From NCBI GenBank assembly GCA_019745315.1, contig JAIETH010000001.1, positions 257,295 to 315,805 on the forward strand: a stretch of 58,511 bases of DNA. The letters run 5' to 3'. The notes under the pieces are model-generated. The model saw only the letters and a program-made list of their open reading frames with translations, was not told the DNA's origin and did no database searches. Numbering within the stretch: position 1 is the stretch's first letter; each line of letters begins with the position of its first letter. Of this stretch, positions 2,709 through 55,238 are shown piece by piece. The translations under genes and the position numbers were made by a program. The DNA comes from Patescibacteria group bacterium. GTDB taxonomy: Bacteria > Patescibacteriota > Minisyncoccia > Phycocordibacterales > UBA918.

Positions 2709-2819
2709 ATGCTACAGACTACCATACGGCGGTATACGAGCCTGATTCTCATAAACACTTGACGAATATTTGATTATCTTGTTATCTATAAGTAGATCAA
2801 CCTGCAGGGAAAAACTCTC

Positions 2820-3035
2820 ATGCGTCCACTCCATAGCGACCCGCTCGTAAACCTCCTTGCGGCAATTGTCGTGTTCTGGGTCATCGGACTCGGCATTGCG
2901 GTAATGCTCCAAGGATGGCGCGGTGCAAAAAAGTACGTTCTCGGGGGCTTACAAGCTCTCTTTTACGTACTCGCAAGCATCACGGAGGCGCTGGCAAAGC
3001 TGCTTGGCTACGCAGCCAAAAAATTGGGAGGCTGA
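2820..3035 (+). CDS. Small membrane protein, hypothetical
   Basis: 71 aa ORF with hydrophobic segment; ends TGA before a hairpin. Confidence 0.5.
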   Translation: MRPLHSDPLVNLLAAIVVFWVIGLGIAVMLQGWRGAKKYVLGGLQALFYVLASITEALAKLLGYAAKKLGG

Positions 3036-3136
3036 GCAACTCCCCTTTCATACACCACCCACCTAATGCATAAACGCATCGTGTGGGTAGTTTTATATCA
3101 ATGACAAAATCAATCAAGAAATAAGGAAGATCCATA

Positions 3137-3457
3137 ATGTCAAAATATTCACGAAGTGGAGGAAAATACACACGGGCACATAGCACGCTCATTCCTTTTG
3201 CGACGGAAATATGTGACGCCCTGAATATACAACCAGAAGTTACAAAGATCTCTCTCGGCTTCATAACAAGTGGACTCCGCTCTTCTAACAACAACAGACG
3301 GCTTAAAATCAAGGGAGATATAGGCTCACTTCTTCTTTCGGTACGAGATAACAAAGCGACACAAGAAATACGTATTTATACGAGCGATCTTGAGAAGACA
3401 AAGCGAGATATTGTGAAATATGCAGAAGGTATAGATGTTGAAGTTTCTATTACTTAA
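3137..3457 (+). CDS. DUF2103-like small protein (paralogue 1)
   Basis: HSTLIPFATEICDALNIQPEVTKISLGFIT ... LLLSVRDNKATQEIRIYTSD; DUF2103-like pattern. Confidence 0.55.
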   Translation: MSKYSRSGGKYTRAHSTLIPFATEICDALNIQPEVTKISLGFITSGLRSSNNNRRLKIKGDIGSLLLSVRDNKATQEIRIYTSDLEKTKRDIVKYAEGIDVEVSIT

Positions 3458-3514
3458 AAGCTCGTTAGCATAAACCGCCTAATCTGTCCGCCTGTCTGGT
3501 AGCGTAACTCTATT

Positions 3515-3895
3515 TTGATGATAGAATCACGCCAGAAAAAAGAAAGGGTTCCTGCTATGCCGGCACGGAAAGCAAGTAAATGTGCCGGCACGCAGACTAC
3601 TTTTATTTATGCAGCCGGCACTGTGTGCGACATACTAAACGAGATAGACGCAGTTACAAAAATACTTCCCAGAGTTATCGCTATGGGAACTAAGTTAACG
3701 AATGTAACTCCTGGCTGTGAGATAAAACTTATAACAGTAAATTCTTCTCCAGGCTTTCTGCGTCTTCGGGTACGTGATGGTTCGGCAGTACAAACGATAC
3801 ATGTGTATACAACCAGCATCGAAGAAACTGTAGATACGCTCCGGCGAAACATACAGCGAAAATGGATAGGCGCAACCGTACAAGAAAGGAAATAA
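3515..3895 (+). CDS. DUF2103-like small protein (paralogue 2)
   Basis: Co-linear with upstream ORF: VCDILNEIDAVTKILPRVIAMG ... LRLRVRDGSAVQTIHVYTTS. Confidence 0.5.
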   Translation: MMIESRQKKERVPAMPARKASKCAGTQTTFIYAAGTVCDILNEIDAVTKILPRVIAMGTKLTNVTPGCEIKLITVNSSPGFLRLRVRDGSAVQTIHVYTTSIEETVDTLRRNIQRKWIGATVQERK

Positions 3896-3986: not shown

Positions 3987-4442
3987 ATGACACTACACGA
4001 AACTATCAAAGAACATTTGAAAGAATCAATGAAAGCACGCGACGAAGTCCGTCTTCGTACGGTGCGAGGAATCCTCACAGCCTTCACTAACGAGCTTGTT
4101 GCAACAGGAAAGAAACCTCAGGATGTCCTCTCCGACGAACAAGGACTTGCAGTGATCACACGCCTTGCAAAGCAGCGCAAAGATTCAATAGATCAATTTA
4201 CCAAGGGTGGACGCGAAGATCTTGCTGATATTGAAAAAGTGGAGCTTGTCGTACTTCAGACCTACCTTCCGACACTTATGACTCAGGAAGAAATCCGTCC
4301 GATCGCAGAAGCAAAAATAAAAGAGCTTGGTATCACTGATAAAAGTAAAATTGGTATGGTACTCGGAGGCCTCATGAAGGACCTTAAAGGCAAGGCAGAT
4401 GGAGCTGATGTGAAAGTAGTTGTTGAGTCCCTCTTAAGCTAA
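3987..4442 (+). CDS. GatB/YqeY domain-containing protein
   Basis: KEHLKESMKARDEVRLRTVRGILTAF ... LAKQRKDSIDQFTKGGREDLADIEKVELVVLQTYLP. Confidence 0.9.
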   Translation: MTLHETIKEHLKESMKARDEVRLRTVRGILTAFTNELVATGKKPQDVLSDEQGLAVITRLAKQRKDSIDQFTKGGREDLADIEKVELVVLQTYLPTLMTQEEIRPIAEAKIKELGITDKSKIGMVLGGLMKDLKGKADGADVKVVVESLLS

Positions 4443-4451
4443 TACCTTTCT

Positions 4452-4709
4452 ATGCGCTTTGAACGAAAGAGTAAACCGCATACATCTTCTAAAGAGAGAG
4501 GTGGAACAAAATCAATTGCTAAGGGAGAGTCAGTGTATCCCCCGTATAACCCAGACAAGCCAACCATCGAAAGTTGTGAGCGCGAAATAGCGCGACTCGA
4601 AAGCCTCATCATAAGCAAACGAATACATAGCCGCGATGATATTCCAGAACTCGAAGAAGCGCTTACGTCTGTGAAAGAAACACTCGCAGTCCTCAGTCTC
4701 ACATTTTAA
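4452..4709 (+). CDS. Hypothetical protein
   Basis: 85 aa ORF directly after YqeY, convergent with truB. Confidence 0.45.
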   Translation: MRFERKSKPHTSSKERGGTKSIAKGESVYPPYNPDKPTIESCEREIARLESLIISKRIHSRDDIPELEEALTSVKETLAVLSLTF

Positions 4710-5362
4710 ATAGCTCGAGCATCGGCGACACTCATGTCGCCGATCGTCGTTCTGCGCAAATCTTCTATAGTTGCAGGGTATCCAAGACGCTTTCCTAATT
4801 CTTCCGCAAGTGAACGAATATACACACCACTTGCGACGTGCCATACCACAGAAATACGAGCTCTCTGCTCCCCTTTTTCTGTAACAAAGAGATTGAGACT
4901 TGTCGCCTCCCCGCTCATCACTTCCATTGATCGAATAGGTATATCTTCTATCGTTTTTCCCGCGCGCGCTTTTTTGTAGAGCGGCTGCCCACCACGCTTC
5001 ACCGCTGAGTACACCGGAACAGGGAGTGTCAGCACTCCTGTCATACCTGTAATAACCTCAGAAACTATTTTTAAAGAAAGACTCGTAACATCTTTTGATT
5101 CAAGTATTTCTCCTTCCATATCGCCTGTACTGCGCCGCTCTCCAATACGAACAACTGCTTCGTATGTCTTTGGTAATTTGAGATACGATTCGAGCTTTTT
5201 AGTACCCGCTCCAATACCAACAATCATAAGTCCTGTTGCCAAGGGATCAAGCGTTCCTGCGTGACCAATCTTGGTAATACCAAGCTCTCGTCGAAGTCGA
5301 CGAATAACATCAAACGATGTAATTCCTTTTGGCTTATCTACGAGAATAATATCTGTATCCAT
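4706..5362 (-). CDS. truB: tRNA pseudouridine(55) synthase
   Basis: DKPKGITSFDVIRRLRRELGITKIGHAGTLDPLATGLMIVGIG. Confidence 0.93.
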   Translation of the reverse strand: MDTDIILVDKPKGITSFDVIRRLRRELGITKIGHAGTLDPLATGLMIVGIGAGTKKLESYLKLPKTYEAVVRIGERRSTGDMEGEILESKDVTSLSLKIVSEVITGMTGVLTLPVPVYSAVKRGGQPLYKKARAGKTIEDIPIRSMEVMSGEATSLNLFVTEKGEQRARISVVWHVASGVYIRSLAEELGKRLGYPATIEDLRRTTIGDMSVADARAI

Positions 5363-5367
5363 ATACT

Positions 5368-5805
5368 TTAAAAAATTTGAAGGCCTGCACCTTTCTGCAT
5401 ACGCACCTTCCGTAACTCTGCTTGGCACTCACGATACCGAGGTATTGCCTTCTCCACAAGCTTCCAAAAGTTTTCGCCATGATTAAACTCTTCGAGGTGG
5501 CACAGCTCATGAGCAACAATATAGTCAATGAGATGTACTGGCAAAAACTGTATTCGATAATTAAAGTTGAGATTCTTTTTAGTTGAACAGCTTCCCCAGC
5601 GACTTTTTTGATCTCGTATTGCAACTTTATTATATGCAAAATTATAAAATGCATTGAGCGCTGAGAGACGCTCATGTACCAGAGTACGAGCCGACTCTTT
5701 ATGTGCAAGATAGTGCTTTGAAGGCGCAGCAGAGACTCGCCGTCTTTTTCTTTTAAGAAAGAACAATTTTGATATTCGCCTTTTTGTTCTAAACATACGT
5801 ACCAA
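5368..5805 (-). CDS. YgjP-like metallopeptidase
   Basis: RDQKSRWGSCSTKKNLNFNYRIQFLPVHLIDYIVAHELCHLEEFNHGENFW. Confidence 0.9.
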   Translation of the reverse strand: MVRMFRTKRRISKLFFLKRKRRRVSAAPSKHYLAHKESARTLVHERLSALNAFYNFAYNKVAIRDQKSRWGSCSTKKNLNFNYRIQFLPVHLIDYIVAHELCHLEEFNHGENFWKLVEKAIPRYRECQAELRKVRMQKGAGLQIF

Positions 5806-10899: not shown

Positions 10900-10926
10900 C
10901 CAAATTAATCCCCCGGATTAATTTGG
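10900..10926. other. Perfect hairpin immediately before tRNA-Glu-like fragment
   Basis: ccaaattaatcc-ccc-ggattaatttgg, 12-bp stem, 3-nt loop. Confidence 0.8.
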
Positions 10927-11013
10927 CCCTATCGTCTAACGGTTAGGCCGTCGAAGCATCTCCCAGAAGCTTCGACCCTTATCAGGCGAAAATCCGAAGT
11001 TCAGAAGTTGTAT
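10925..11013 (+). other. tRNA-Glu 5'-half-like pseudo-tRNA/leader
   Basis: ggccctatcgtctaacggttagg (23 nt) identical to the start of the tRNA-Glu at 11014, then gtcgaagc...gcttcgac hairpin and no matching 3' acceptor. Confidence 0.7.
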
Positions 11014-11088
11014 GGCCCTATCGTCTAACGGTTAGGACAGCGCCCTTTCACGGCGTAAATCCGGGTTCGATTCCCGGTAGGGTCACCA
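11014..11088 (+). tRNA. tRNA-Glu(UUC), CCA encoded
   Basis: Acceptor GGCCCTA/TAGGGTC, anticodon loop CTTTCAC, T arm GGTTCGATTCC, ending CCA. Confidence 0.95.
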
Positions 11089-11109: not shown

Positions 11110-11126
11110 CTCGAGAAGGGTCGAGA
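11110..11126 (+). repeat. Left attachment repeat of integrated element
   Basis: ctcgagaagggtcgaga, identical to 23688-23704. Confidence 0.8.
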
Positions 11127-14535: not shown

Positions 14536-15816
14536 TTATACTAGTATCATCACACCCTGCTTAAGAGATATCTGGTTATTTACACACTCCAAGACAGATC
14601 TCTGTTCAAGTATCGTTCCCTCAGTAAGCACGAATCTTGCATAATCTCGCACATCAATTGATTCAATTTTCTCAGTCTTCTTCTTGCCCAGAAACATTGC
14701 TTGAAGCTTCTTAAATTTCTGAATTTCAGCATTGAGCTTAGTGTTTAGTTTTACCTGATCAAGACTTATAGTATCAAGCATTTTGATCATAGCTGTAATG
14801 AGATCAGTTTCGTTTATGGCTGGGTTTTTGCAGTCTCTATCTTTTGCCTTGGTACAACGATAATAAACATACCGATTCACCCCACCCTCTTTGAGCTTCT
14901 TAAACTTTTCATCGGCTGTAATACCAGAACCACAAACTCCACACTTCATAATACGAGTGAATGCAAACTCTTTGCCCTGCGACTTTATAACCTGAGACTT
15001 AATAGAGTTTCTGGTCTCATTAAATAGCTCTTTGGTTATGAGGGGTGTGTGTTTGCCTTCATACCAGATACCAGCACCCTGCGGAAACTCAAATTTACCG
15101 TAGTAGAAGGTGTTATTTATTATTTTAAACACATTTCCAATACTTAAGTGATAGCCACGTAAGGTTCTAAAGTTTAAATCGTATTTGAGCCATGCATGTA
15201 CCTTTGAAGCACTCCATTTCTCATAGGCAATTTTCTCGAAGACTTGCCGTATAACATCCGCTCGTTCAGGGTCGATTTCCACCTCACATTTAGCTAGTCG
15301 CCCATCAACTTTCCTGTACCCTGTAGGTGGCTGGGCTGGCCACAAACCCATCTCACATCTCGTCCTCATCCCACGCTTCACATTGATACTTTTATTGTCG
15401 TTCTCGAGTTTGGCTTGAGAACATAGAATCATAAGGAGGAATTTATCACTTGGTGAATTAGTGAAATTCTGCCCAAACGTCTTAATCGTGATGAGCTTCT
15501 TTTGATCCATTCTATCTACCAATTTTCCTAAGTCTCCAGCGTTACGAGACAATCTATCGGGTGCCCAAGTAATAATGGCGTTGAAGAAGCCATTATCAAT
15601 ATCTTTCACAATCTCCTCAAACACAGGTCTCTGACTTGATTCCTTAGCTGAATGTGACTCACGCCTAATCTCTACTATATTAAGCTTTTCTCGCTCTGCT
15701 ATTTGGGTCATTTCCTTGATTTGTGAATCAATCGAAAGTGCCTGTTTTTCGTCGCCCTCTGTCGACTTACGAGCATACAAGCAATATCTATTTTCACTTT
15801 CTAACACCTCTGTCAT
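14536..15816 (-). CDS. Large serine recombinase
   Basis: YCLYARKSTEGDEKQALSIDSQ catalytic Ser region; RLSRNAGDLGKLVD; Zn-ribbon MKCGVCGSGITADEK...YYRCTKAKDRDCKN. Confidence 0.95.
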   Translation of the reverse strand: MTEVLESENRYCLYARKSTEGDEKQALSIDSQIKEMTQIAEREKLNIVEIRRESHSAKESSQRPVFEEIVKDIDNGFFNAIITWAPDRLSRNAGDLGKLVDRMDQKKLITIKTFGQNFTNSPSDKFLLMILCSQAKLENDNKSINVKRGMRTRCEMGLWPAQPPTGYRKVDGRLAKCEVEIDPERADVIRQVFEKIAYEKWSASKVHAWLKYDLNFRTLRGYHLSIGNVFKIINNTFYYGKFEFPQGAGIWYEGKHTPLITKELFNETRNSIKSQVIKSQGKEFAFTRIMKCGVCGSGITADEKFKKLKEGGVNRYVYYRCTKAKDRDCKNPAINETDLITAMIKMLDTISLDQVKLNTKLNAEIQKFKKLQAMFLGKKKTEKIESIDVRDYARFVLTEGTILEQRSVLECVNNQISLKQGVMILV

Positions 15817-15839
15817 GTATTAATTAATGACAGAACCAA

Positions 15840-15865
15840 AAACCCTGCATAGCTATGCAGGGTTT
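15840..15865. terminator. Perfect 26-bp terminator palindrome
   Basis: aaaccctgcatag/ctatgcagggttt between recombinase start and terminase stop. Confidence 0.85.
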
Positions 15866-15885
15866 GATTTACATCACATAGTCGT

Positions 15886-17490
15886 TTAATAGTTTCGCCG
15901 TCGACGGTCAGCCGTAGGAATTATTTCTATTTGTTCTTTAGATTTTGGAAGTAGACAATCAACATCTTGGAGCACATCCCGGTAATCATGGAACCATACC
16001 GTGTCGTCCTCAGCAGATCCCGGTCCCAAGAAAGCAATCAAGAACGTGCTCTCGTGAGTAAAATCCTCAACAATCTTCAGTACAAGTAACGAAAATGCGT
16101 CAGCGAGGTCATCGTGCTTTTCGACACCAAAGCCAAGCATCTGCTGAAGTAATTCCTCGCAACCAGTATCAGGAAAAATAATAGTACCGTTTCTAATCAT
16201 TGAGGATGTTAAAGCGAGTCGAGTACGTTTATCATTATGAGGTTTAATCGATTCAGCTTTTACCCCCTGAGAATCAAGCATCTGAGGAAGTGCATCTTGA
16301 TACCCCACACTCTCAATCAATAATTTATCCATACTTCTCGTTAGAACAGTCTTTTTATGAACCTTCATCATCTCAACTTGTTGTGGAAACGTAAGTCGTT
16401 GATTGTAGGGTTGGGGCATAATGAAGACTCGTAATTTCTCGTTCCGACCGTAAATACGAGCGGACACCATCGCTGTACAGTCTGCCGTATCTTTAACCGA
16501 AATTGCCAAGTCCACGCCAGAATAAGTCGCTCGGTAGGCTTTTGTAGTGGTCGGAGGTAACAAATCGGTATGATAATACTGAATCCAATCAGGATGAATA
16601 ACTTGGTCATCATCGGGAATGATATTGAGGAGATACTCACGTTGCCACGCCACCTCGTCACCAATCTTCTTTCGTTCTTTCTCAAGCGACTTCGCATCGG
16701 GAAACTTGCCAGGCCAGTTAGACCGCCCTTTATCGTCAGCAATCGCACAGGACATGAACGTACCGTTTAATTCTTTCTTGAGTACACGCTCTCGCAGTCG
16801 CATAAGGAGCGAATCTTCGTGAAGTAAGTTACCAATCACAATCAGTCGAGTGTCTTGGTCACCAGCTGGAATCACATCACCTGTGAGCCACTGATACGTT
16901 TTATTACGCCCCTCTCGGGTTTTTGTAGACGCTACGTCCTCAACGTCGTCACAGATAAATAAGTCAGGGCGGTGTTGATGATGACGTAGCCCACGGATAC
17001 TCTGCTCAGAGGAAGCTACCGTGATACGAGCCTTAGTGTTTGAGAATACAATCGAATGAGATCCCCATTCATCAGACTCTTCACTAAAGGGACCGAGGTC
17101 GTTTTTGAGTAGTTGGTTGTTCTCCAGCTCGTTACGAATATTCATCATGTGCTGTTTAGCTTGTACCCGAGTCTGACAAAAGATAATCACAAACTTCTTC
17201 TGCTGTTTGCCCAGAATCGCCCAAATCGGGAAAGCAGTCGTCACAATCGTTGATTTACCTGAGCCACGAAACGCTACCACAAACAGATGTTCGTCTGGTT
17301 CGTTTTCGAGCTTACCGATAAGGTCTCGCTGGAATGCAGCGGTCGGAAATTGTACGTAGTGGGCAAAGTAGAAATGGAAGAAGTAGTTAAAGCTACCACT
17401 CATAATCTGTTGCCGTACGACACGGTCTTTCTTCATTGAGTTAAACAGCTCTTCTGAGATTGGGTTATTATTTTGATTTTGCATGATCAT
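15886..17490 (-). CDS. Phage terminase large subunit-like protein
   Basis: VVAFRGSGKST Walker A; LFICDDVEDV Walker B; nuclease-like GVDLAISVKDTADCTAMV and KHDDLADAFSLL. Confidence 0.9.
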   Translation of the reverse strand: MIMQNQNNNPISEELFNSMKKDRVVRQQIMSGSFNYFFHFYFAHYVQFPTAAFQRDLIGKLENEPDEHLFVVAFRGSGKSTIVTTAFPIWAILGKQQKKFVIIFCQTRVQAKQHMMNIRNELENNQLLKNDLGPFSEESDEWGSHSIVFSNTKARITVASSEQSIRGLRHHQHRPDLFICDDVEDVASTKTREGRNKTYQWLTGDVIPAGDQDTRLIVIGNLLHEDSLLMRLRERVLKKELNGTFMSCAIADDKGRSNWPGKFPDAKSLEKERKKIGDEVAWQREYLLNIIPDDDQVIHPDWIQYYHTDLLPPTTTKAYRATYSGVDLAISVKDTADCTAMVSARIYGRNEKLRVFIMPQPYNQRLTFPQQVEMMKVHKKTVLTRSMDKLLIESVGYQDALPQMLDSQGVKAESIKPHNDKRTRLALTSSMIRNGTIIFPDTGCEELLQQMLGFGVEKHDDLADAFSLLVLKIVEDFTHESTFLIAFLGPGSAEDDTVWFHDYRDVLQDVDCLLPKSKEQIEIIPTADRRRRNY

Positions 17491-17881
17491 GTTTCTTAGT
17501 TGGGATAATCCGAGCCATCTCCAGTGCCTGACGCACAGTGGCTTCTTGTTCGGGGGTAAGTTCATCAATGACACCCATACGGGTGACTTCTAGCTTGTCC
17601 TTATAGGCTGGATGGCGTTTATTGAGCCAAAATCGTACCGCTGGAAAGTTCTTTTCCTTGATCAGAGTGAGTAGTTGGCTTTCACTCATGTCGTTCACCA
17701 AAGCCACACCATCAGAGAGGGCTTGATCCATTTTCTTCTCAAACTCCTTATCTTCCTTCCGCCAGCGGTACACAGTGTTGCGAGAGAGTCCTGCTTTCTC
17801 GCACGCCACCTGCACAATCGGTACCTTAGATAGCTCAAGAAGAAACTGCTTGGCAGATTTACTTTTCTTCATACCGTTCAA
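17468..17881 (-). CDS. Terminase small subunit-like HTH protein
   Basis: VPIVQVACEKAGLSRNTVYRWRKEDKEFEKKMDQAL; overlaps terminase large gene. Confidence 0.75.
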   Translation of the reverse strand: MNGMKKSKSAKQFLLELSKVPIVQVACEKAGLSRNTVYRWRKEDKEFEKKMDQALSDGVALVNDMSESQLLTLIKEKNFPAVRFWLNKRHPAYKDKLEVTRMGVIDELTPEQEATVRQALEMARIIPTKKHDHAKSK

Positions 17882-19142
17882 CGATAGCTTTGGTGCCAGT
17901 CATGGCTTCAAAGCGGTTGATAATGAGGTCGCAGAATCGAGGTTCTAAATCGCACCCATACACTCGTCGCCCCAATTGTTCGCCAGCCAAAAGCGTACTG
18001 CCAGAGCCAAGGAAACTATCGAGGATAATGTCATTTGGTTTGGTACAGCGTTTAATCGCTTTCTCGTGGAGTGTGAGTGGTTTTGAAGTAGCGTGCTGGT
18101 AGTCTTTAGCGGACAATCGCTTAGCAGTCCAGATTTCAATAAAGTCATCGACCTGAGTGACCAGTTCGTTTCCTGTACCAAACTCTTTATTTAGCACCTC
18201 GTTTAAATCTTGAATACTTTCTGCAAGATAGGGTTTTCCTCGCACACCGTAAACGGCTGGCTCGTAGGCTTTATTGCAGAATACTTTCGGTACAGGATTC
18301 TGTGAATTCTTTAGCCACAAACAGACTCGCTTGTTAGCAATACCAAGCGAGCGGTACACCTCCTGAATCAGCCCGATGTATATTTGGTCGCAGTAGTAGA
18401 AGACGTGAGTGTTAGGTTCTGATACGGCAAGTGCAGCACTGAGGCTATCATTGATAAATATCTTGTACTCATCAAACGTACGTGAATCATTGACGTTACC
18501 GCCATAGTCTTTCTTGCCACCGATTCCACCGTCGTAATTCACCTGAATGTTGTACACGGGGTCTGAGTAGATCATCGAGGCTCGTTCAGCGCCGAGTAGT
18601 CGAGTAAGGGTTTCTGGTTTAGTGGAGTCGCCACAAATAAGCTTGTGTCGCCCAAGATGAATAATGTCCCCGAGTTTCGTCTTAGGGGTGACGATTTTCT
18701 TTAGTTCCTTTTCTACGTCGAAGTCATCGTCTTTGGTAACGTTGTCTTCATCCCAAAACTTCGCTAGCTCCATTGATTCAAAGCCAGCGAAAGACAAGGT
18801 GTCCATATCGAACGCCTTGAGAAGGTCATAATCCCAGTCACCCCCAAGCTTGTTTGAGCCTATAAGATACTGTTTGGATTCTTTTTCGGTGAGCTTGCGA
18901 TTTGGTACCCGTACGTCGATTAATTCTTCACCCCGCCCTAAGAGCTGAAGTGCCTTAATACGTTGGTGACCAGCAAGGATAGTGCCGTTTGCGTCTATAG
19001 CTGGTATCTCTACTAGATTGAACCTCTTCAGACTGTCTGTGAGAGCTTTCATCTGAGCGTCAGTGATCTTACGAGGATTAATCTCCTGCGGTACAAGATC
19101 ATTTACTTTCTTCTGGACGGTTGTCCAATATAGCTTTTGCAT
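17859..19142 (-). CDS. ParB-N/DNA methylase fusion
   Basis: ParB-like N-terminus (LVEIPAIDANGTILAGHQRIKALQLLG), LICGDST, SDPVYN and LDSFLGSGSTLLAGEQLGRRVYGCDL. Confidence 0.9.
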   Translation of the reverse strand: MQKLYWTTVQKKVNDLVPQEINPRKITDAQMKALTDSLKRFNLVEIPAIDANGTILAGHQRIKALQLLGRGEELIDVRVPNRKLTEKESKQYLIGSNKLGGDWDYDLLKAFDMDTLSFAGFESMELAKFWDEDNVTKDDDFDVEKELKKIVTPKTKLGDIIHLGRHKLICGDSTKPETLTRLLGAERASMIYSDPVYNIQVNYDGGIGGKKDYGGNVNDSRTFDEYKIFINDSLSAALAVSEPNTHVFYYCDQIYIGLIQEVYRSLGIANKRVCLWLKNSQNPVPKVFCNKAYEPAVYGVRGKPYLAESIQDLNEVLNKEFGTGNELVTQVDDFIEIWTAKRLSAKDYQHATSKPLTLHEKAIKRCTKPNDIILDSFLGSGSTLLAGEQLGRRVYGCDLEPRFCDLIINRFEAMTGTKAIVERYEEK

Positions 19143-19304: not shown

Positions 19305-19724
19305 TTAAGCTTTGGTCTGCTTTTTCTCTAGTCCACGAATCAAACGTTTGCCGTTCTTACTCTTCATGAACTCCTCAGCATCTCTACCAAGCTTAATCGG
19401 TATATGCTTAGGTACTCCAAGCATAACTCGGTAACCGAGTTGCTGGTAATGGCGAACTGCTTCTTGCAACTTGGGATCATTCACCCCAAACGGTAACTCA
19501 ACATGAATGGAGTTACTGTCACCATTCTCAGACTTCGGTGCTTGAAGTGGAGAGAAAATGCGACCTTCCTTATTGTGCTCTATGGAGCGCTGAACGACAG
19601 CACCAACTGATGGAGTTGGGCGAGCGTTCATATGCAACTGTATATCCGTAAGCTCAAGAACGATGACTTTCTCACCTTTCTTGATGGGCTTTGTGACACG
19701 GTTTAATTGTAATATTTGCTCCAT
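19305..19724 (-). CDS. Hypothetical protein
   Basis: 139 aa ORF divergent from the S24 regulator. Confidence 0.5.
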   Translation of the reverse strand: MEQILQLNRVTKPIKKGEKVIVLELTDIQLHMNARPTPSVGAVVQRSIEHNKEGRIFSPLQAPKSENGDSNSIHVELPFGVNDPKLQEAVRHYQQLGYRVMLGVPKHIPIKLGRDAEEFMKSKNGKRLIRGLEKKQTKA

Positions 19725-19803: not shown

Positions 19804-20442
19804 ATGCACACCAAACAACAACAGCTATTAGCCCTCATAGACAACGACCCAGATATTGGATCATATAGCCTAAGGACAATTGCCAACAAGATTGGAGTGA
19901 CAGACAGACCGCAAATAGTTAAATATCACCTTACTCAACTAGAAAAGGCTGGTTTGATACAGATGAACCTACCGGCAGGAGTACTTAAGCGGGTACAAAA
20001 AGGATTTGTGAAGTCTACCGTCAATACGGTCTACTCCCTTCCCGTAGTTGGAGCAGCCAACTGTGGACCAGCAACTATTTTTGCCGAGCAAAATGTTCAG
20101 CAGTATCTAAAGGTATCTTCCTCTATGTTGCCATCAAGTAAAAAGGGGCTTTACGCTCTCATTGCTGACGGTGACAGTATGAACAAGGCAGAAGTCAGTG
20201 GAAAGAAAATCGAGAGTGGCGACTTCATTCTTGTCGACAGTAGTTACTATAACTATAAAGATAAAGACATTGTCGTAGCTGTAATTGACGGCATGGCGAC
20301 GATTAAACGCTACCGAGAAGACAAAGCTCACAAGCGGATTGTCCTCGAAGCCGACTCGACTGAAAAGTACCTACCCATTTTCATACACGAGGGTGACGAT
20401 TTTCAATTAAGCGGAAAAGTTGTCGGAATTATTAAAGGTTAA
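19804..20442 (+). CDS. LexA/S24-like repressor with N-terminal wHTH
   Basis: DPDIGSYSLRTIANKIGV...VKYHLTQLEKAGLI; LYALIADGDSMNKA (Ser), ESGDFILVDSS, DGMATIKRY (Lys). Confidence 0.85.
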   Translation: MHTKQQQLLALIDNDPDIGSYSLRTIANKIGVTDRPQIVKYHLTQLEKAGLIQMNLPAGVLKRVQKGFVKSTVNTVYSLPVVGAANCGPATIFAEQNVQQYLKVSSSMLPSSKKGLYALIADGDSMNKAEVSGKKIESGDFILVDSSYYNYKDKDIVVAVIDGMATIKRYREDKAHKRIVLEADSTEKYLPIFIHEGDDFQLSGKVVGIIKG

Positions 20443-20453
20443 CAGTTAAACGT

Positions 20454-20681
20454 ATGGCTAAAAATATTCATACAGTATTCAATTCAGGACGAGGAATGTG
20501 GGAAAACAAAAAAGAAGGCTCTTCTGCTCCAGTTTCATATCACCACACTAAAAATAACGCTTTAGATCGAGCGGAGAAAATCGCAGGCAAGGCAAAGGTC
20601 GAGCACTTTATTCACGGCAAAGACGGAAAGATCCAAGAGCGTAATAGCTATGGCAACGATCCATTTCCACCACGCGGTTAG
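20454..20681 (+). CDS. DUF2188-like protein
   Basis: IHTVFNSGRGMWENKKEGSSAPVSYHHTKNNALDRAEKIAGKAKVEHFIHGKDGKIQERNSYGNDPFPP. Confidence 0.85.
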   Translation: MAKNIHTVFNSGRGMWENKKEGSSAPVSYHHTKNNALDRAEKIAGKAKVEHFIHGKDGKIQERNSYGNDPFPPRG

Positions 20682-20690
20682 TTAAAACTT

Positions 20691-21113
20691 ATGGAAGCAA
20701 AAATAAAGCACCTAGAGTTCATTCAAGAGGTTATTAAACGGATGGCCAGCAACTCTTTCCTTTTGCGTGGATGGAGTATCACGCTTGTAATCGCAATTTC
20801 TACAATTGCTAGTCAGACTTTCAAGCCGAGTTATGTTGTCATTGCTTTACTAGTAACACTCATATTTTGGACACTTGATTCGTATTACCTCTGGCAAGAG
20901 AAGCGATTTCGTTGCCTCTACGAGGAGGTGAGGAAAAAAGACCCAGCAACCATCGATTTTTCCATGAAATTGCCTGACAAACATTGTTGTAACTGTAGTT
21001 GGTATTCATCAGTAAAATCACCAATATTTATCTCTTTCTATGGCGTAGCAGCACTCGCTCTCTTAGTACTACTCTTCATAACTTACTTCGATATAACCAT
21101 AACCCTGAAATAA
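20691..21113 (+). CDS. Small TM protein, SLATT-like/effector candidate
   Basis: Helix then two closely spaced TM segments (WSITLVIAISTIASQTF, YVVIALLVTLIFWTLDSYYLWQEKRFR), plus a third hydrophobic segment near the C-terminus. Confidence 0.7.
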   Translation: MEAKIKHLEFIQEVIKRMASNSFLLRGWSITLVIAISTIASQTFKPSYVVIALLVTLIFWTLDSYYLWQEKRFRCLYEEVRKKDPATIDFSMKLPDKHCCNCSWYSSVKSPIFISFYGVAALALLVLLFITYFDITITLK

Positions 21114-21114
21114 T

Positions 21115-21690
21115 ATGTCACGAAAAGTATTTTACAGTTTTCACTTTGATAAAGATTCACAGCGTGCAGCGCAGATTAGAAACAGTCATGCGATTGCCGA
21201 TGTTGATGAGTACGGTGTCATTGATTCAGTAGATTGGGAAGAAATCAAACGCTCAGGACCTGATTCGATTAAGCGTTGGATTAATGATCAGCTTAAGTAC
21301 ACTTCGGTCACGGTAGTACTGATTGGTGCTGAGACATCTGAAAGACAATGGGTACAATATGAGATTGAGCGTAGCTGGGAACGTGGAAATGGATTGGTCG
21401 GAGTAACAATTCATAACGTAAAGAATCTAGCAGGAGAAACTACAAGCGCTGGAAAAAATCCATTCGATAAACAGGTATTAGCTGACGGAACCCCACTCTC
21501 TGCTGTCTGCAAAGTTTACGATTGGGTAGCTGACGGTGGTTTAGCAAACTTAGGTAAATGGTCTGAAGAAGCCTTTGAAATTCGTTCAAATTATAAGGGT
21601 AATCCTGCTCTAAAGGGTTCACCAGTTAAAACTACAACACCTACACCAGTACAGACGATTAGCAACCCTTCACGACCATGGGCACTGTAG
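21115..21690 (+). CDS. ThsB-like/MTH538-type TIR domain protein
   Basis: KVFYSFHFDKDSQRAAQIRNSH ... VDWEEIKRSGPDSIKRWINDQLKYTSVTVVLIGAETSERQWVQYEIERSWERGNGLVGVTIHNVK. Confidence 0.9.
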   Translation: MSRKVFYSFHFDKDSQRAAQIRNSHAIADVDEYGVIDSVDWEEIKRSGPDSIKRWINDQLKYTSVTVVLIGAETSERQWVQYEIERSWERGNGLVGVTIHNVKNLAGETTSAGKNPFDKQVLADGTPLSAVCKVYDWVADGGLANLGKWSEEAFEIRSNYKGNPALKGSPVKTTTPTPVQTISNPSRPWAL

Positions 21691-22397
21691 GAATCAGGGG
21701 TTATACCTTTTCTGAAGAAGAAATAGTATTTACACGGTGTAAGTTTCCTAAACTCACACTCGTATCAGAGTCTGTTTGGGATGGAATAATTGACATTGAC
21801 GCGACTTATAACGATATCCATATTGTCGACTCTTTTCAAGTAAAAATTGGAGTGTTTCGAGATTTTCCAACTGAACTACCTATAGTCAATGAGGTCGGAG
21901 GTCGTATAAAAGTTATTGCTGATAAATACGGCATTACTGATTACCGTGATTTACACGTAAATCCACGGACCGATACAATCTGCCTATGTGTAAAGCAAGA
22001 GGAAAAGTATAAGGTTCCGCCCGGTTCTACATTTGTAGATTTTCTCAATAACTTAGTTATTCCTTACTTTTTTGGGCTGAGTTACTACGAAAAAAATAGA
22101 GTATGGCCGTGGGGTGAATATTCTCATGGCGGACTAGGTCTACTTGAATACTACTCTGACAATAAGGTATCACTTACAAGTGATGATTTAGAGTTACTGA
22201 CCTCTAATTTGAGGCGTGATGAAAAGTGGAAGTCATACAGCAAAAGGTTAAGGGATTCCAATTTATCAAAGAAATGTGTATGCGGATCAGAAAAACCATT
22301 CAATTCTTGCCACACAAAAGCGGCAGACGGAATGAGTCACGTCTTAAGTGAGGTTCACAGATTGCACCTGAGCTCTTATAAACTCTTTAAAAAATAA
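21678..22397 (+). CDS. E2/UBC-like fold protein with C-terminal SEC-C-like motif
   Basis: VKIGVFRDFPTELPIVNEVGGRI ... DLHVNPRTDTICLCV ... IPYFFGLSYYEKNRVWPWGEYSHGGLGLLEYY ... CVCGSEKPFNSCH. Confidence 0.65.
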   Translation: MGTVGIRGYTFSEEEIVFTRCKFPKLTLVSESVWDGIIDIDATYNDIHIVDSFQVKIGVFRDFPTELPIVNEVGGRIKVIADKYGITDYRDLHVNPRTDTICLCVKQEEKYKVPPGSTFVDFLNNLVIPYFFGLSYYEKNRVWPWGEYSHGGLGLLEYYSDNKVSLTSDDLELLTSNLRRDEKWKSYSKRLRDSNLSKKCVCGSEKPFNSCHTKAADGMSHVLSEVHRLHLSSYKLFKK

Positions 22398-23053
22398 TGG
22401 GTATGAATTTTGATATAGCTATCAGAATTTTGAACCAAAAGTTAGAAGAGGCTGAGCCTGAGATATTAAGTAGTTCGTGGATTTACTTTAACGCTCCAAA
22501 GGTATATTACTTTGTACGCAACAACTACAGAACGGAAAATGATCACATTGACTGGGACATAGTTACCAGATCACTTAATCGTGCATACGCTAAACGCTGG
22601 ACTAGATACAGATACAAACAAGCACGACTATACGAACGACAATCTGAGGTTGACGCCGTACTTACTCGATATAAAGATAAACTATACACTTTCTTTGCTC
22701 CTGCTTCCGAATCGGACAAACAGATTCAAGACCGCATGATTATCCGTTTGGTACGTATCGGACAACGTGGCAATGTGTGTGCTCAAGAAGAATTGGTACG
22801 TTGGGTCACATTCGTGACTGATGACTGGATTGATAGGTATCCACAAATGTATCGCTGGAAAGGCTACGAGGACGAGGTGCCAGACAAAATTCGTTCATGT
22901 ATACGCTGTTACCGATATACTGGCTCATTTCTAGGATACTTATTTAAAACACTTGAGTATTCGGCTCGTGGCAAGCCGCCCCTTGTTTCCCTTGATGACA
23001 AGATTCTAGACGGTAATAAGGCTAGAATTGAGTACCTAAGGCTACAAGAATAG
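22397..23053 (+). CDS. Sigma-70 region 2-like protein
   Basis: RIGQRGNVCAQEELVRWVTFVTDDWIDRYP...RYTGSFLGYLFKTLEYSARGKPPLVSLDD; overlaps previous gene. Confidence 0.55.
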   Translation: MGMNFDIAIRILNQKLEEAEPEILSSSWIYFNAPKVYYFVRNNYRTENDHIDWDIVTRSLNRAYAKRWTRYRYKQARLYERQSEVDAVLTRYKDKLYTFFAPASESDKQIQDRMIIRLVRIGQRGNVCAQEELVRWVTFVTDDWIDRYPQMYRWKGYEDEVPDKIRSCIRCYRYTGSFLGYLFKTLEYSARGKPPLVSLDDKILDGNKARIEYLRLQE

Positions 23054-23092
23054 CAAATTTACATACACATCTCATAAGAGTATAGTTTCGTT

Positions 23093-23644
23093 ATGGACCG
23101 TTTTAAAAACCTAATTTCAAAGCTAGATTTAAGGAAAGAAAAGGTAATTTCGTTATTGCTGACCCTTGTACTAACGACACTGATTTTTCTTGATAATAAC
23201 TATTTTGATCATGTACTTCTCACAAGTACCTACTTTTTCTCAATGGCTTTTTTAGCCGTTTTACTTGTGGCAATAATGCTGTTAGCGGGTCACGCAGTCT
23301 ATAAATCAGCGATACATGCCAGTGTGGGTTTTGGTGTACTAATTTTTCTCGCTCAAACTTATTGTAACCTTGAAACTAAGACACCAGACGGTATCGAGGC
23401 TTTAAACACACTCTGGACAATTGGTTTTATATTTATCGTGTATGAGTTTTTTAATAAGTTGCAAGAAGCTTATAAGGCACACACAAAGCCGCTACGAGAT
23501 GATATCAAAACTAAGAAGTGGGAGCCAACATTACTAATGGTAATTTATTCAATTTTTATACTGATATATATCTCATTAATAACAAAGGTGCTAACGCCAA
23601 TTGTGCTTGATTTATGTATTTATAAAAGTGACATAGGACTGTAA
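23093..23644 (+). CDS. Multi-TM (about 4 TM) hypothetical protein
   Basis: Four hydrophobic stretches; last gene before the right repeat. Confidence 0.65.
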   Translation: MDRFKNLISKLDLRKEKVISLLLTLVLTTLIFLDNNYFDHVLLTSTYFFSMAFLAVLLVAIMLLAGHAVYKSAIHASVGFGVLIFLAQTYCNLETKTPDGIEALNTLWTIGFIFIVYEFFNKLQEAYKAHTKPLRDDIKTKKWEPTLLMVIYSIFILIYISLITKVLTPIVLDLCIYKSDIGL

Positions 23645-23687: not shown

Positions 23688-23704
23688 CTCGAGAAGGGTC
23701 GAGA
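23688..23704 (+). repeat. Right attachment repeat of integrated element
   Basis: ctcgagaagggtcgaga, identical to 11110-11126. Confidence 0.8.
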
Positions 23705-24041: not shown

Positions 24042-24329
24042 ATGACCCTAAAAACTATCTCATCAGGAACCGTCCATCGTGTGCCAACTGACGTGCGATC
24101 TATACTCCAGTCAAACACTACTATTTTAGAACTTTGGAATAAACTTACTCCGCTCGCCCGGAATGAGTGGATTTGTTGGATAACGATTGTAAAGAAAAAA
24201 GAGACGCGAGCAGAGCACATCGTACGGATGCAGACAGAATTACAAAAAGGTAAACGACGACCGTGCTGTTGGCCAGGATGCCCTCATCGAAGACCACAAG
24301 CACAGAAGTGGTTTGGTAAGAAAAAATAA
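24042..24329 (+). CDS. YdeI/OmpD-associated-like protein
   Basis: ILELWNKLTPLARNEWICWITIVKKKETRAEHIVRMQTELQKGKRRPCCWPGCPHR. Confidence 0.7.
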   Translation: MTLKTISSGTVHRVPTDVRSILQSNTTILELWNKLTPLARNEWICWITIVKKKETRAEHIVRMQTELQKGKRRPCCWPGCPHRRPQAQKWFGKKK

Positions 24330-24351
24330 GGTTTAGTTTTATACCATAACC

Positions 24352-25215
24352 ATGGAGGGACTAGATATTTTTAATGACTGGAAACATAGAGACTGTGCAA
24401 TTGCCACTATGCATGGCAAAGAAACTATTATTTCTCCCCTGCTTAAACAGGAACTAGGAATAAACAGTGTAGTACCACAAAACTTTAATACCGACTCATT
24501 TGGTACTTTTACACGCGATATTCGACGAATAGGAAATCAACTTGAGGCGGCGCGTAAAAAAGCCCAAGCCGCTCTCGATCACACAGGATTAGATCTTGCC
24601 ATTGCAAGCGAAGGGAGCTTTGGGGCGCATCCCGATCTTCCATTTGTATCAAGCAATCTCGAATTAGTATTATTTCTAGATACAAAAAATACTATTGAAA
24701 TAGTTGGTCACTACCGTACAAGCGCTGTGCGGGCACGCGGTCAAAAAATATACACACCAGAAGAAGCGGTGTTAGTGGCAGAATCATGGGGATTCCCGGA
24801 TCAAGGAATAATTCTTCGTACATCTGAAAAAAGTAGTAGAAATATATACAAAGACATCACGAGTAAAGAAGATTTAAAAGAAAGGGCAAAAAAACTTTTA
24901 TCTCCATGGTACGTGAGGTCTATTTTTATAGAAACAGATATGCGAGCACATCGTTGCCCTGCTCGAATGGAATCCATCAGAAATGCAACTCTCGATCTTA
25001 TACAAAACTGCAAAAGCGTATGCCCAAAATGCATCACTCCTGGCTTTGTGATCACTGAAACAATACAAGGATTACCGTGTGGTGAATGTGGATTAGAAAC
25101 AGATACGATAAAAGAAGTAGTACGTTCGTGTAAAAAATGCCTTTACAAAGAAAGTAATCCTATAGGAGACAAGGTGGCAGCAAAGCCTGAAGAGTGTCAG
25201 TGGTGTAATCCGTAG
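24352..25215 (+). CDS. DUF6671-like protein
   Basis: ATMHGKETIISPLLKQELG ... ARKKAQAALDHTGLDLAIASEGSFGAHPDLPFVSSNLELVLFLD ... C-terminal CxxC zinc sites. Confidence 0.75.
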   Translation: MEGLDIFNDWKHRDCAIATMHGKETIISPLLKQELGINSVVPQNFNTDSFGTFTRDIRRIGNQLEAARKKAQAALDHTGLDLAIASEGSFGAHPDLPFVSSNLELVLFLDTKNTIEIVGHYRTSAVRARGQKIYTPEEAVLVAESWGFPDQGIILRTSEKSSRNIYKDITSKEDLKERAKKLLSPWYVRSIFIETDMRAHRCPARMESIRNATLDLIQNCKSVCPKCITPGFVITETIQGLPCGECGLETDTIKEVVRSCKKCLYKESNPIGDKVAAKPEECQWCNP

Positions 25216-53735: not shown

Positions 53736-54077
53736 ATGCATCAGAAAAGTTCTCCCAGCAAGAAAACGCGCCGCAGCCGCTACGCAGCAACTCACGGCAA
53801 GAAGGAATCGATGCCGCATATCGCGCTTCGTCGCAGCCTGCTGAAGAAGGTCGCCGAGGAGCGTACTATCCCGGAGCAAGGTCTCCAGTGGATCGGTGGC
53901 GTGCTGTACCGATCCATGGGCGGGGACTGGATCGAAGTCAGCGGCGTTCAGCGTGTGCCGAAGCCGGGACGCCCCGCCATCGGTATCGCCGCCGGCGCAC
54001 AAACTCAGATCTCCCGCAGGGGCGCCGAGGATCCGCCGAAGCCGACACGTCTCTCACTCACGGCCTGGGTACTATAA
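53736..54077 (+). CDS. Solitary GC-rich hypothetical protein
   Basis: RBS-like aggggaaa before ATG; ttgact box upstream; terminator-like agctccagcaatggggctttttt downstream. Confidence 0.55.
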   Translation: MHQKSSPSKKTRRSRYAATHGKKESMPHIALRRSLLKKVAEERTIPEQGLQWIGGVLYRSMGGDWIEVSGVQRVPKPGRPAIGIAAGAQTQISRRGAEDPPKPTRLSLTAWVL

Positions 54078-54240
54078 CCAAGCAGCAATACAGCTCCAGC
54101 AATGGGGCTTTTTTTATTTTTATTAAAAAATCTGAACTTAATTCAACCTTTTGATAACTATTGACATAATCTAAATAGTATACTAAGGTATTCGGGCTCG
54201 GGCACATCCGCACGAGTAACCCAATCGAAAGTTCCTTCCC

Positions 54241-54738
54241 ATGACCCAGACGACCAACTCCGTTGGCAACGGCTCCGACATCACCGGCCGCGCCGGCCTG
54301 ATGTCGGGCACCGCGCTCGGCACCGGGCAGACGACCGCGACCCTCGACGCCGCCGATACGCCGGCGATGAAGCCGCCCTTGCACCAGTGCATCTGCAACA
54401 AGATCACCACGCTCGGCACCAATCAGCTCGATGTCTATCGCCTCGCCTTCTTCCGCGAGCTGATCGAGGGCTCCAGCCTCGCGCGCGAGCATGCGACCAG
54501 CCTCCTCGCCGCGACCGAGCGCCGCTGCGTCGAGCTGCAGAGCATGACGGCGATCACCGACGGCGATGCCAACATGCGCGACGAGCTGATCACCGGCCTG
54601 CGGGAGCTCAGCACGATCCTGGCGCAGAAGCTGGACGACATCGCGAACCGCGGCGCCGACCAGGATGCCGGGCATCACCGTCCCGGCGCGGGCGATCTGC
54701 CGGGCGGCACGGCGAGCGTCGTCCACGACGCGGCCTGA
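54241..54738 (+). CDS. Solitary very GC-rich hypothetical protein
   Basis: ttgaca...tatact promoter-like upstream; C/G-biased third codon positions; hairpins cgcgagacct...aggtctcgcg and ctgcaag...cttgcagttttttt downstream. Confidence 0.6.
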   Translation: MTQTTNSVGNGSDITGRAGLMSGTALGTGQTTATLDAADTPAMKPPLHQCICNKITTLGTNQLDVYRLAFFRELIEGSSLAREHATSLLAATERRCVELQSMTAITDGDANMRDELITGLRELSTILAQKLDDIANRGADQDAGHHRPGAGDLPGGTASVVHDAA

Positions 54739-54929
54739 CGCCATCGATCGCGAGACCTCACGCTCGAGGTCTCGCGACCACACACTGCAAGAAACCCTTG
54801 CAGTTTTTTTATTGTATATATCCAAAGAATCTTTTTTTATCACTTCTAAGAAAAACTACAAAAGGTTGCACTCTATCTGCTAGCAGGTATAGTGTCACCC
54901 AGAAAACAACGATAGAGAGGACTCAAAAA

Positions 54930-55238
54930 ATGAGTGCCGACAGACAGAAGCTGCAAGCGCTATCCATTCTCATCGCAGACGAACCACAAGCGCTCGTACG
55001 AGTCCTCGACGTCATCGCAAAACGCGGACTCAATATATCGTCTCTCGAAGTGGCTCCCGTCTCAGCTGAAACCAACGAAGAAAAAAGCTGTGGTATTTCT
55101 CGCATAGCCCTCGTTACAGCGTGTGACGACGATGCAATTTCTCTCATGTGTCACCTTATTGGGAAAATTGTCACCGTCTTTTCTGTTGAGATAGTGACGG
55201 AGAACCTCGCATGGTCATGGCAGATGCCAGCATCATGA
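54930..55238 (+). CDS. Stand-alone ACT-domain protein (IlvN-like)
   Basis: LSILIADEPQALVRVLDVIAKRGLNISSLEVAPV ... terminator cccgacaggaaatcctgtcgggcttttt downstream. Confidence 0.7.
   Translation: MSADRQKLQALSILIADEPQALVRVLDVIAKRGLNISSLEVAPVSAETNEEKSCGISRIALVTACDDDAISLMCHLIGKIVTVFSVEIVTENLAWSWQMPAS

Follow-up and report, generated by a model that had tools for sequence, protein, structure and literature searches.

Why should a gene for a TIR protein of the ThsB family, the family known from Thoeris, stand directly upstream of a gene for an E2-like protein in an operon that has no E1? The question is posed by seven genes on the forward strand at positions 19804-23644 of the DNA analysed here (58,511 nucleotides, hereafter the window), which comes from contig JAIETH010000001.1 of a Patescibacteria group bacterium (assembly GCA_019745315.1) whose genome of 771 kb is 98.8% complete. 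All seven open reading frames (ORFs) are present where an earlier, sequence-only reading had placed them, and they are as closely packed as it had stated, with successive spacings of 11, 9, 1, -13, -1 and 39 bp. That reading took them for a single defence-type system. Their defence character is borne out, as parts of the operon match defence models in PADLOC, which called PDC-M50A, PDC-M50B/ThsB and PDC-S16 (PADLOC candidates, PDC, being predictions) and an E2 of the cyclic-oligonucleotide-based antiphage signalling system (CBASS). Their unity, however, is not: the conserved set comprises only the genes for an S24 repressor (19804-20442), a small membrane protein (20691-21113), the ThsB-like TIR (21115-21690) and the E2 with its SEC-C zinc motif (21678-22397), and none of the other E2 loci examined has the DUF2188 gene or the last two genes. 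Other bacteria have the four genes in this same order, which speaks for more than a chance arrangement. To judge by sequence, the core is a conserved cassette of defence type built from known kinds of component, a ThsB TIR and a CBASS E2. We propose, with a probability of about two in three, that it is a Thoeris-like TIR defence cassette placed under a CBASS-type E2 that would trim and conjugate the tail of the TIR.

The tail in question follows a TIR domain of residues 1-158 and consists of about 33 C-terminal residues (21589-21687, forward strand) ending in NPSRPWAL, in which only two residues follow the pair P188-W189 (W189 of 191). In the TIR alignment the tail is a clean C-terminal addition. 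Such a tag is shared by the partners of related E2 proteins. At 19 of 19 E2/SEC-C loci, the count being of those where the 3' end of the upstream gene is undamaged, the partner ends in a tail with P[W/H/Y] two to eight residues from its C-terminus, the residue after proline being Trp in 15 cases, His in three and Tyr in one. These partners are four TIRs, 12 cGAS/DncV-like nucleotidyltransferases (CD-NTases), one Pycsar cyclase (PycC, 2.3e-116) and two proteins of metallo-β-lactamase (MBL) fold; tag and E2 thus co-occur across four families that are unrelated and non-homologous. Among the other ORFs of at least 150 amino acids in the same loci, by comparison, only 6 of 244 have P[W/H/Y] in their last 15 residues (nominal P ~1e-29, computed for 18 partners). 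ThsB-like TIRs carry tail and tag in 4 of 4 cases with an E2 and in 0 of 14 without (P = 3e-4), the control loci having been checked with the E2 profile, which found none. Plasmid CD-NTases that are accompanied by E1-E2 (Cap2/Cap3) or that lack an E2-SEC-C neighbour have no tag. Outside the tag the tails are variable and look flexible, those of the TIRs being of low complexity and variable length. Two loci were left out of the count: a Comamonas locus (L063), in which PVPW is present but the 3' end of the gene is broken by a Tn3 transposase, and another (L011) with an insertion sequence element in place of the partner.

Two of the plasmid loci are of interest in their own right. That of Runella (L006:3896-9174) contains three MBL-fold genes, the first of which lies directly upstream of the E2 gene and has a KPW tag; this MBL-E2 system, found also at a second locus (L021), is undescribed. 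The CD-NTase of a Vibrio gigantis plasmid (L059:1163-2353) ends in PKPWFKQ and is nearly identical to a chain of PDB entry 9woo, which indicates that others are already studying such a system.

The strongest evidence that the E2 would recognise the tail and not the body of the enzyme comes from module swaps between loci. Locus L015, which encodes a TIR, and locus L016, which encodes a CD-NTase, share DNA homology in two blocks only, one covering the S24 gene and its promoter (90% identity) and the other the tail of the synthase and the E2 (82%); effector and synthase body are unrelated, and the downstream junction falls inside the coding sequence of the tail. The reciprocal pattern is seen between L015 and L019, whose homology (78%) runs from S24 through the membrane protein and the body of the TIR, ends at the tail and gives way to divergent sequence. 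Both patterns together indicate that tail and E2 form one unit of exchange and effector and synthase another. The sequence-only reading had the E2 modify or scaffold some partner, and this can be made more precise: the putative substrate is the tail at the C-terminus of the TIR itself.

That the operon encodes a lone E2-like/SEC-C protein is confirmed by PADLOC (CBASS E2, 1.8e-36), by the match of an E2-family profile in the PDB (2h2y, 6.3e-5) and by the active-site pattern, as H93, C102, H150 and G154 are invariant among 15 aligned members together with the SEC-C ligands C200, C202, C211 and H212. The structure model (pLDDT 77) finds sensible fold matches in UFC1, UBE2Z and E2-type proteins of the ubiquitin E2 variant (UEV) kind, with probabilities up to 1.0 and E >= 0.01, and so weakly supports an E2 fold. 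Neither ThiF nor JAB is matched in the operon, and no ThiF is found above the cut-off in the genome; the only candidate for an E1 elsewhere, a 38-residue ThiF match below the cut-off, was rejected. A profile search of 380 genomes of the phylum, including this one, found a real E2 in four, most matches being discarded as the SEC-C motif of SecA-like proteins. The E2 is rarer than the pair of TIR and membrane protein. Scans of INPHARED and IMG/VR gave no phage-borne relatives of the E2; a broad alignment of E2 proteins was too heterogeneous to be used in back-translated scans.

The TIR, likewise recognised from the start as ThsB-like, matches ThsB_TIR in Pfam (1.5e-24), PDC-M50B (1.5e-58) and ThsB (6.4e-59) in PADLOC and ThsB in the PDB (1e-26), and its Glu83 is conserved in nine aligned relatives. 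The small membrane protein upstream (PDC-M50A, PADLOC 7.4e-44) is the probable effector; the two transmembrane segments attributed to it are clear in its hydropathy profile and the model allows a third; a fold search of the protein returned nothing meaningful. The earlier suggestion of a membrane effector is supported as probable for this protein, the second candidate at the end of the operon counting as cargo. ThsB-like TIRs with the same small membrane partner are common, being known from archaea, Ligilactobacillus, Desulforapulum, cyanobacteria and a number of genomes from the phylum to which the window belongs. At one such locus (L027) the pair is joined by an S24 gene and lacks the E2. 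Three further loci combine TIR and E2, namely L020 (the same locus as L004), L015 and L019, all with membrane protein and S24 gene. In L019, which is from Zambryskibacteria, both the membrane protein gene and the TIR gene contain a single in-frame stop codon (2802-3816). The notion that these two TGA codons are read as sense was rejected, decay or an assembly error being more likely.

How might such a cassette work? Trimming and conjugation, like the signal, the effector role and phage defence itself, are what we infer from the parts. The S24 repressor would hold the operon low until stress or infection, the TIR, going by its family, would turn NAD into a nucleotide signal, and the effector would be the small membrane protein. 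Cys102, perhaps with His150, would cleave the TIR tail after W189 and release Ala-Leu, and the E2 would keep the trimmed TIR as a thioester on Cys102. Since attack by Cys102 after the aromatic residue would yield a thioester, E1 and ATP would not be needed. The new C-terminus of the TIR would then be joined to lysines, probably on other TIR molecules, and TIR activity would thereby be altered. An E2 reportedly processes the C-terminus of cGAS in the E2-CBASS of Serratia (Yan and colleagues, Nat Microbiol 2024). A table in a review lists bacterial cGAS as conjugated by E2 at Y405 (PMC12135389, citing Yan 2024), and two sources report that E2-CBASS conjugates (PMC11153139; PMC12135389). Since the chain of Serratia marcescens CdnG (SmCdnG) in the PDB has 407 residues, Y405 would be an aromatic residue two positions from the end, like W189 of the TIR.

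Several points weigh against this mechanism. There are only four TIR-E2 loci, and one of them, L019, has nonsense codons. The tails of the CD-NTases may be inherited by common descent, so that the 19 partners would not be independent, although four unrelated families share the tag. The residues flanking the aromatic of the tag are not constant, and in four partners PW is replaced, by PH in three and by PY in one. The fold search with the E2 gave no match at E < 0.001. Finally, the position of the aromatic residue in SmCdnG is worked out from the Y405 of the review table and the length of the PDB chain, which assumes the absence of a construct tag.

Would recognition without chemistry suffice? 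The E2 might dock the tagged tail non-covalently and so keep the TIR close to an inhibitor or to the membrane protein, and indeed the link between tag and E2 indicates recognition, not chemistry, and UEV-type folds are among the structural matches. Yet UEV proteins have no cysteine at the catalytic position, and the invariance of Cys102, His93 and His150 in 15 diverse members, together with the conjugation reported for E2-CBASS, leaves docking without conjugation an unlikely explanation. If, on the other hand, the E2 conjugated a different substrate, the TIR tail could be a neutral appendage that travels with the S24/E2 cassette. Its low complexity and variable length are in line with this, and the tail could hitchhike because the TIR and E2 genes overlap by 13 bp. 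At several loci, however, partner and E2 genes abut without overlap, and a neutral tail would not keep its tag, whereas P[W/H/Y] is retained in all 19 partners, which span four unrelated families and whose tails otherwise differ. We regard a neutral tail as highly improbable.

The setting of the operon suggests a different kind of explanation. It lies inside an element bounded by attachment repeats and is divergent from the integrase, TerL and TerS genes of that element, and might thus be a regulatory or lysogeny module of a prophage or satellite, in which the S24 protein would be the repressor of the element and the downstream genes would serve its maintenance, defence being a by-product or absent. 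Against this, the order S24-effector-synthase-E2 recurs elsewhere with CBASS cyclases and MBL proteins, and parts of the operon match defence models, so that we give this view little credence.

If the core is indeed an E2-controlled TIR cassette, to which of the known systems is it closest? To our knowledge the combination matches no named system, and in this it is as unfamiliar as the sequence-only reading had found it; the lone E2 itself, however, has a precedent in type II-short CBASS. The CdnG-E2 system of Serratia marcescens (Yan et al. 2024) likewise has an E2 of the same PADLOC family without E1, the partner gene directly upstream and, reportedly, an aromatic C-terminal tag a few residues from the end. 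It differs in that our operon has a TIR as synthase instead of a CD-NTase, with no CD-NTase in the operon and none of the SMODS family (PF18144) in the host genome, and the PDC-M50A membrane protein as effector. Type II CBASS with Cap2/Cap3 also conjugates its signal synthase through the C-terminus, but an E1-E2 fusion there acts on the terminal Gly/Ala of the cyclase (PMC10097602; PMC11153139), whereas the present operon lacks both E1 and Cap3 and its aromatic tag is internal. The Bil (ISG15-like) operon comprises a ubiquitin-like protein, E1, E2 and a deubiquitinase, of which only the E2 is present here. With Thoeris the operon shares a TIR of the ThsB family (PF08937; PDB relatives 6lhy and 9b7d). 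It contains no known ThsA, and SIR2, SLOG and macro domains are matched neither in it nor just downstream; nor is a tailed TIR with an E2 described for Thoeris in the open-licence literature searched. The candidate system PDC-M50 contributes both of its genes, adjacent and with high scores, for the membrane protein (A) and the ThsB-like TIR (B), but the other PDC-M50 loci examined have neither E2 nor tail. A Pycsar locus on a Chryseobacterium plasmid (L007) encodes an E2 of this kind together with a PycC that bears a PW tag, with a pyrimidine cyclase where our operon has the TIR. We know of no description of an E2-linked Pycsar system, and in the open-licence literature neither TIR-E2 nor Pycsar-E2 turned up, although this does not prove that no such paper exists.

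Given this range of partners, it is fairly probable that the E2/SEC-C protein is a portable, E1-independent module for a C-terminal Pro-aromatic tag on CD-NTases, Pycsar cyclases, TIRs and MBL proteins, that the signal enzyme itself would be the ubiquitin-like tag, and that effector and synthase body are swapped between a fixed S24 gene and a fixed tail and E2. The pairing of tag and E2 thus has the look of a switch that bacterial immune systems can pass around. For CBASS cyclases, ubiquitin-like conjugation is already known; if our proposal is correct, conjugation of signal enzymes would be a general control of prokaryotic immunity and not a peculiarity of CBASS, TIR signalling would gain a post-translational switch, and there would be a short, transferable conjugation tag that needs neither E1 nor ATP. 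Further cases can be sought by a simple sequence test, P[W/H/Y] near a C-terminus beside an E2-SEC-C gene.

The first gene of the operon, correctly named as an S24 regulator (Pfam Peptidase_S24, 3.4e-19), encodes a predicted LexA-like S24 repressor and not LexA itself, as it scores 78 bits with the LexA equivalog TIGR00498, below the cut-off of 111. It retains the GDSM serine and the ATIK lysine as well as a cleavage-site pattern (C-G), so that DNA damage could plausibly induce the operon. A related S24 gene is present at 8 of 8 E2 loci on genomic contigs, and with the window at nine in all. The DUF2188 protein (20454-20681, forward strand), also as predicted, matches Pfam (1.4e-18) and the PADLOC candidate PDC-S16; it was not seen in the other E2 loci examined and would be accessory. 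The last two genes are cargo outside the conserved core. The 218-residue product of the first (22397-23053, forward strand) had been called sigma-like, an identity that is unsupported, as the protein has no match in Pfam, PHROGs, PADLOC, NCBIfam or the PDB; of 379 other genomes in the phylum only two encode relatives, in neither case near an E2. The product of the second (23093-23644, forward strand) belongs to no family and is a multi-pass membrane protein, as had been proposed, with three or four hydropathy segments where four had been counted.

The location of the operon inside an integrated element is not in the sequence-only reading. Two copies of the 17-bp direct repeat CTCGAGAAGGGTCGAGA, both on the forward strand, mark its ends: the left copy (11110-11126) lies directly 3' of a tRNA-Glu gene (11014-11088) and the right one (23688-23704) directly 3' of the last operon gene. 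The repeat occurs nowhere else in the genome, and shuffles give an expectation of 0.02 such matches in the window. Between the repeats, on the reverse strand, are genes for a large serine recombinase, the probable integrase (14536-15816; Pfam Resolvase 5.5e-21, PHROG integrase 1.6e-64), the terminase large subunit TerL (15886-17574; PHROG_38, 3.6e-79), a TerS-like small subunit (17468-17881; PHROG_4044, 5.4e-11), a ParB-like protein with an N6/N4 DNA methyltransferase (17859-19142; Pfam 3.8e-27, PHROG 1.4e-82) and a small protein divergent from the operon (19305-19724; no Pfam or PHROG match). As the repeats flank both this region and the operon, the operon is cargo at the right end of a 12.6-kb element, which is either a satellite or a decayed prophage. 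No structural (capsid or tail) genes were found among those of its long ORFs that were tested. In relatives compared by way of the flanking genes in search of an empty site, the left flank gene is not conserved.

Relatives of TerL with up to 63% identity are found on IMG/VR contigs of 7-8 kb. The order methyltransferase-TerS-TerL-serine integrase (14536-19142 in the window) is kept with other cargo in two of these (L085 and L087), and a related contig (L086) has its TerS-TerL-integrase portion, with a reverse transcriptase-like ORF, recognised by eye, between TerL and integrase (4423-5481) that is possibly diversity-generating retroelement cargo. A further contig (L084:2986-3904) encodes a serine integrase with a TIR and a small membrane protein, the PDC-M50 pair in reverse order and without an E2, so that the pair is found next to an integrase of this type for the second time. 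Together with the window's element, these four contigs seem to represent one family of small elements that integrate and carry packaging genes; inspection by eye revealed no capsid gene in them, the contigs being short and possibly incomplete and no family scan having been made.

Some minor features of the window lie outside the element. An exact 24-nt copy of the 5' end of tRNA-Glu (10924-10947) lies 89 bp ahead of the intact tRNA gene of the integration site, and just beyond the right end OmdA/YdeI-like and DUF6671 (8.5e-58) proteins are encoded on the same strand (24042-25215). Two stretches, 1-1010 (62% GC) and 54001-55000 (58%), stand out against about 44% and are possibly foreign insertions or assembly artefacts; the former encodes RTX-like glycine/aspartate repeats.

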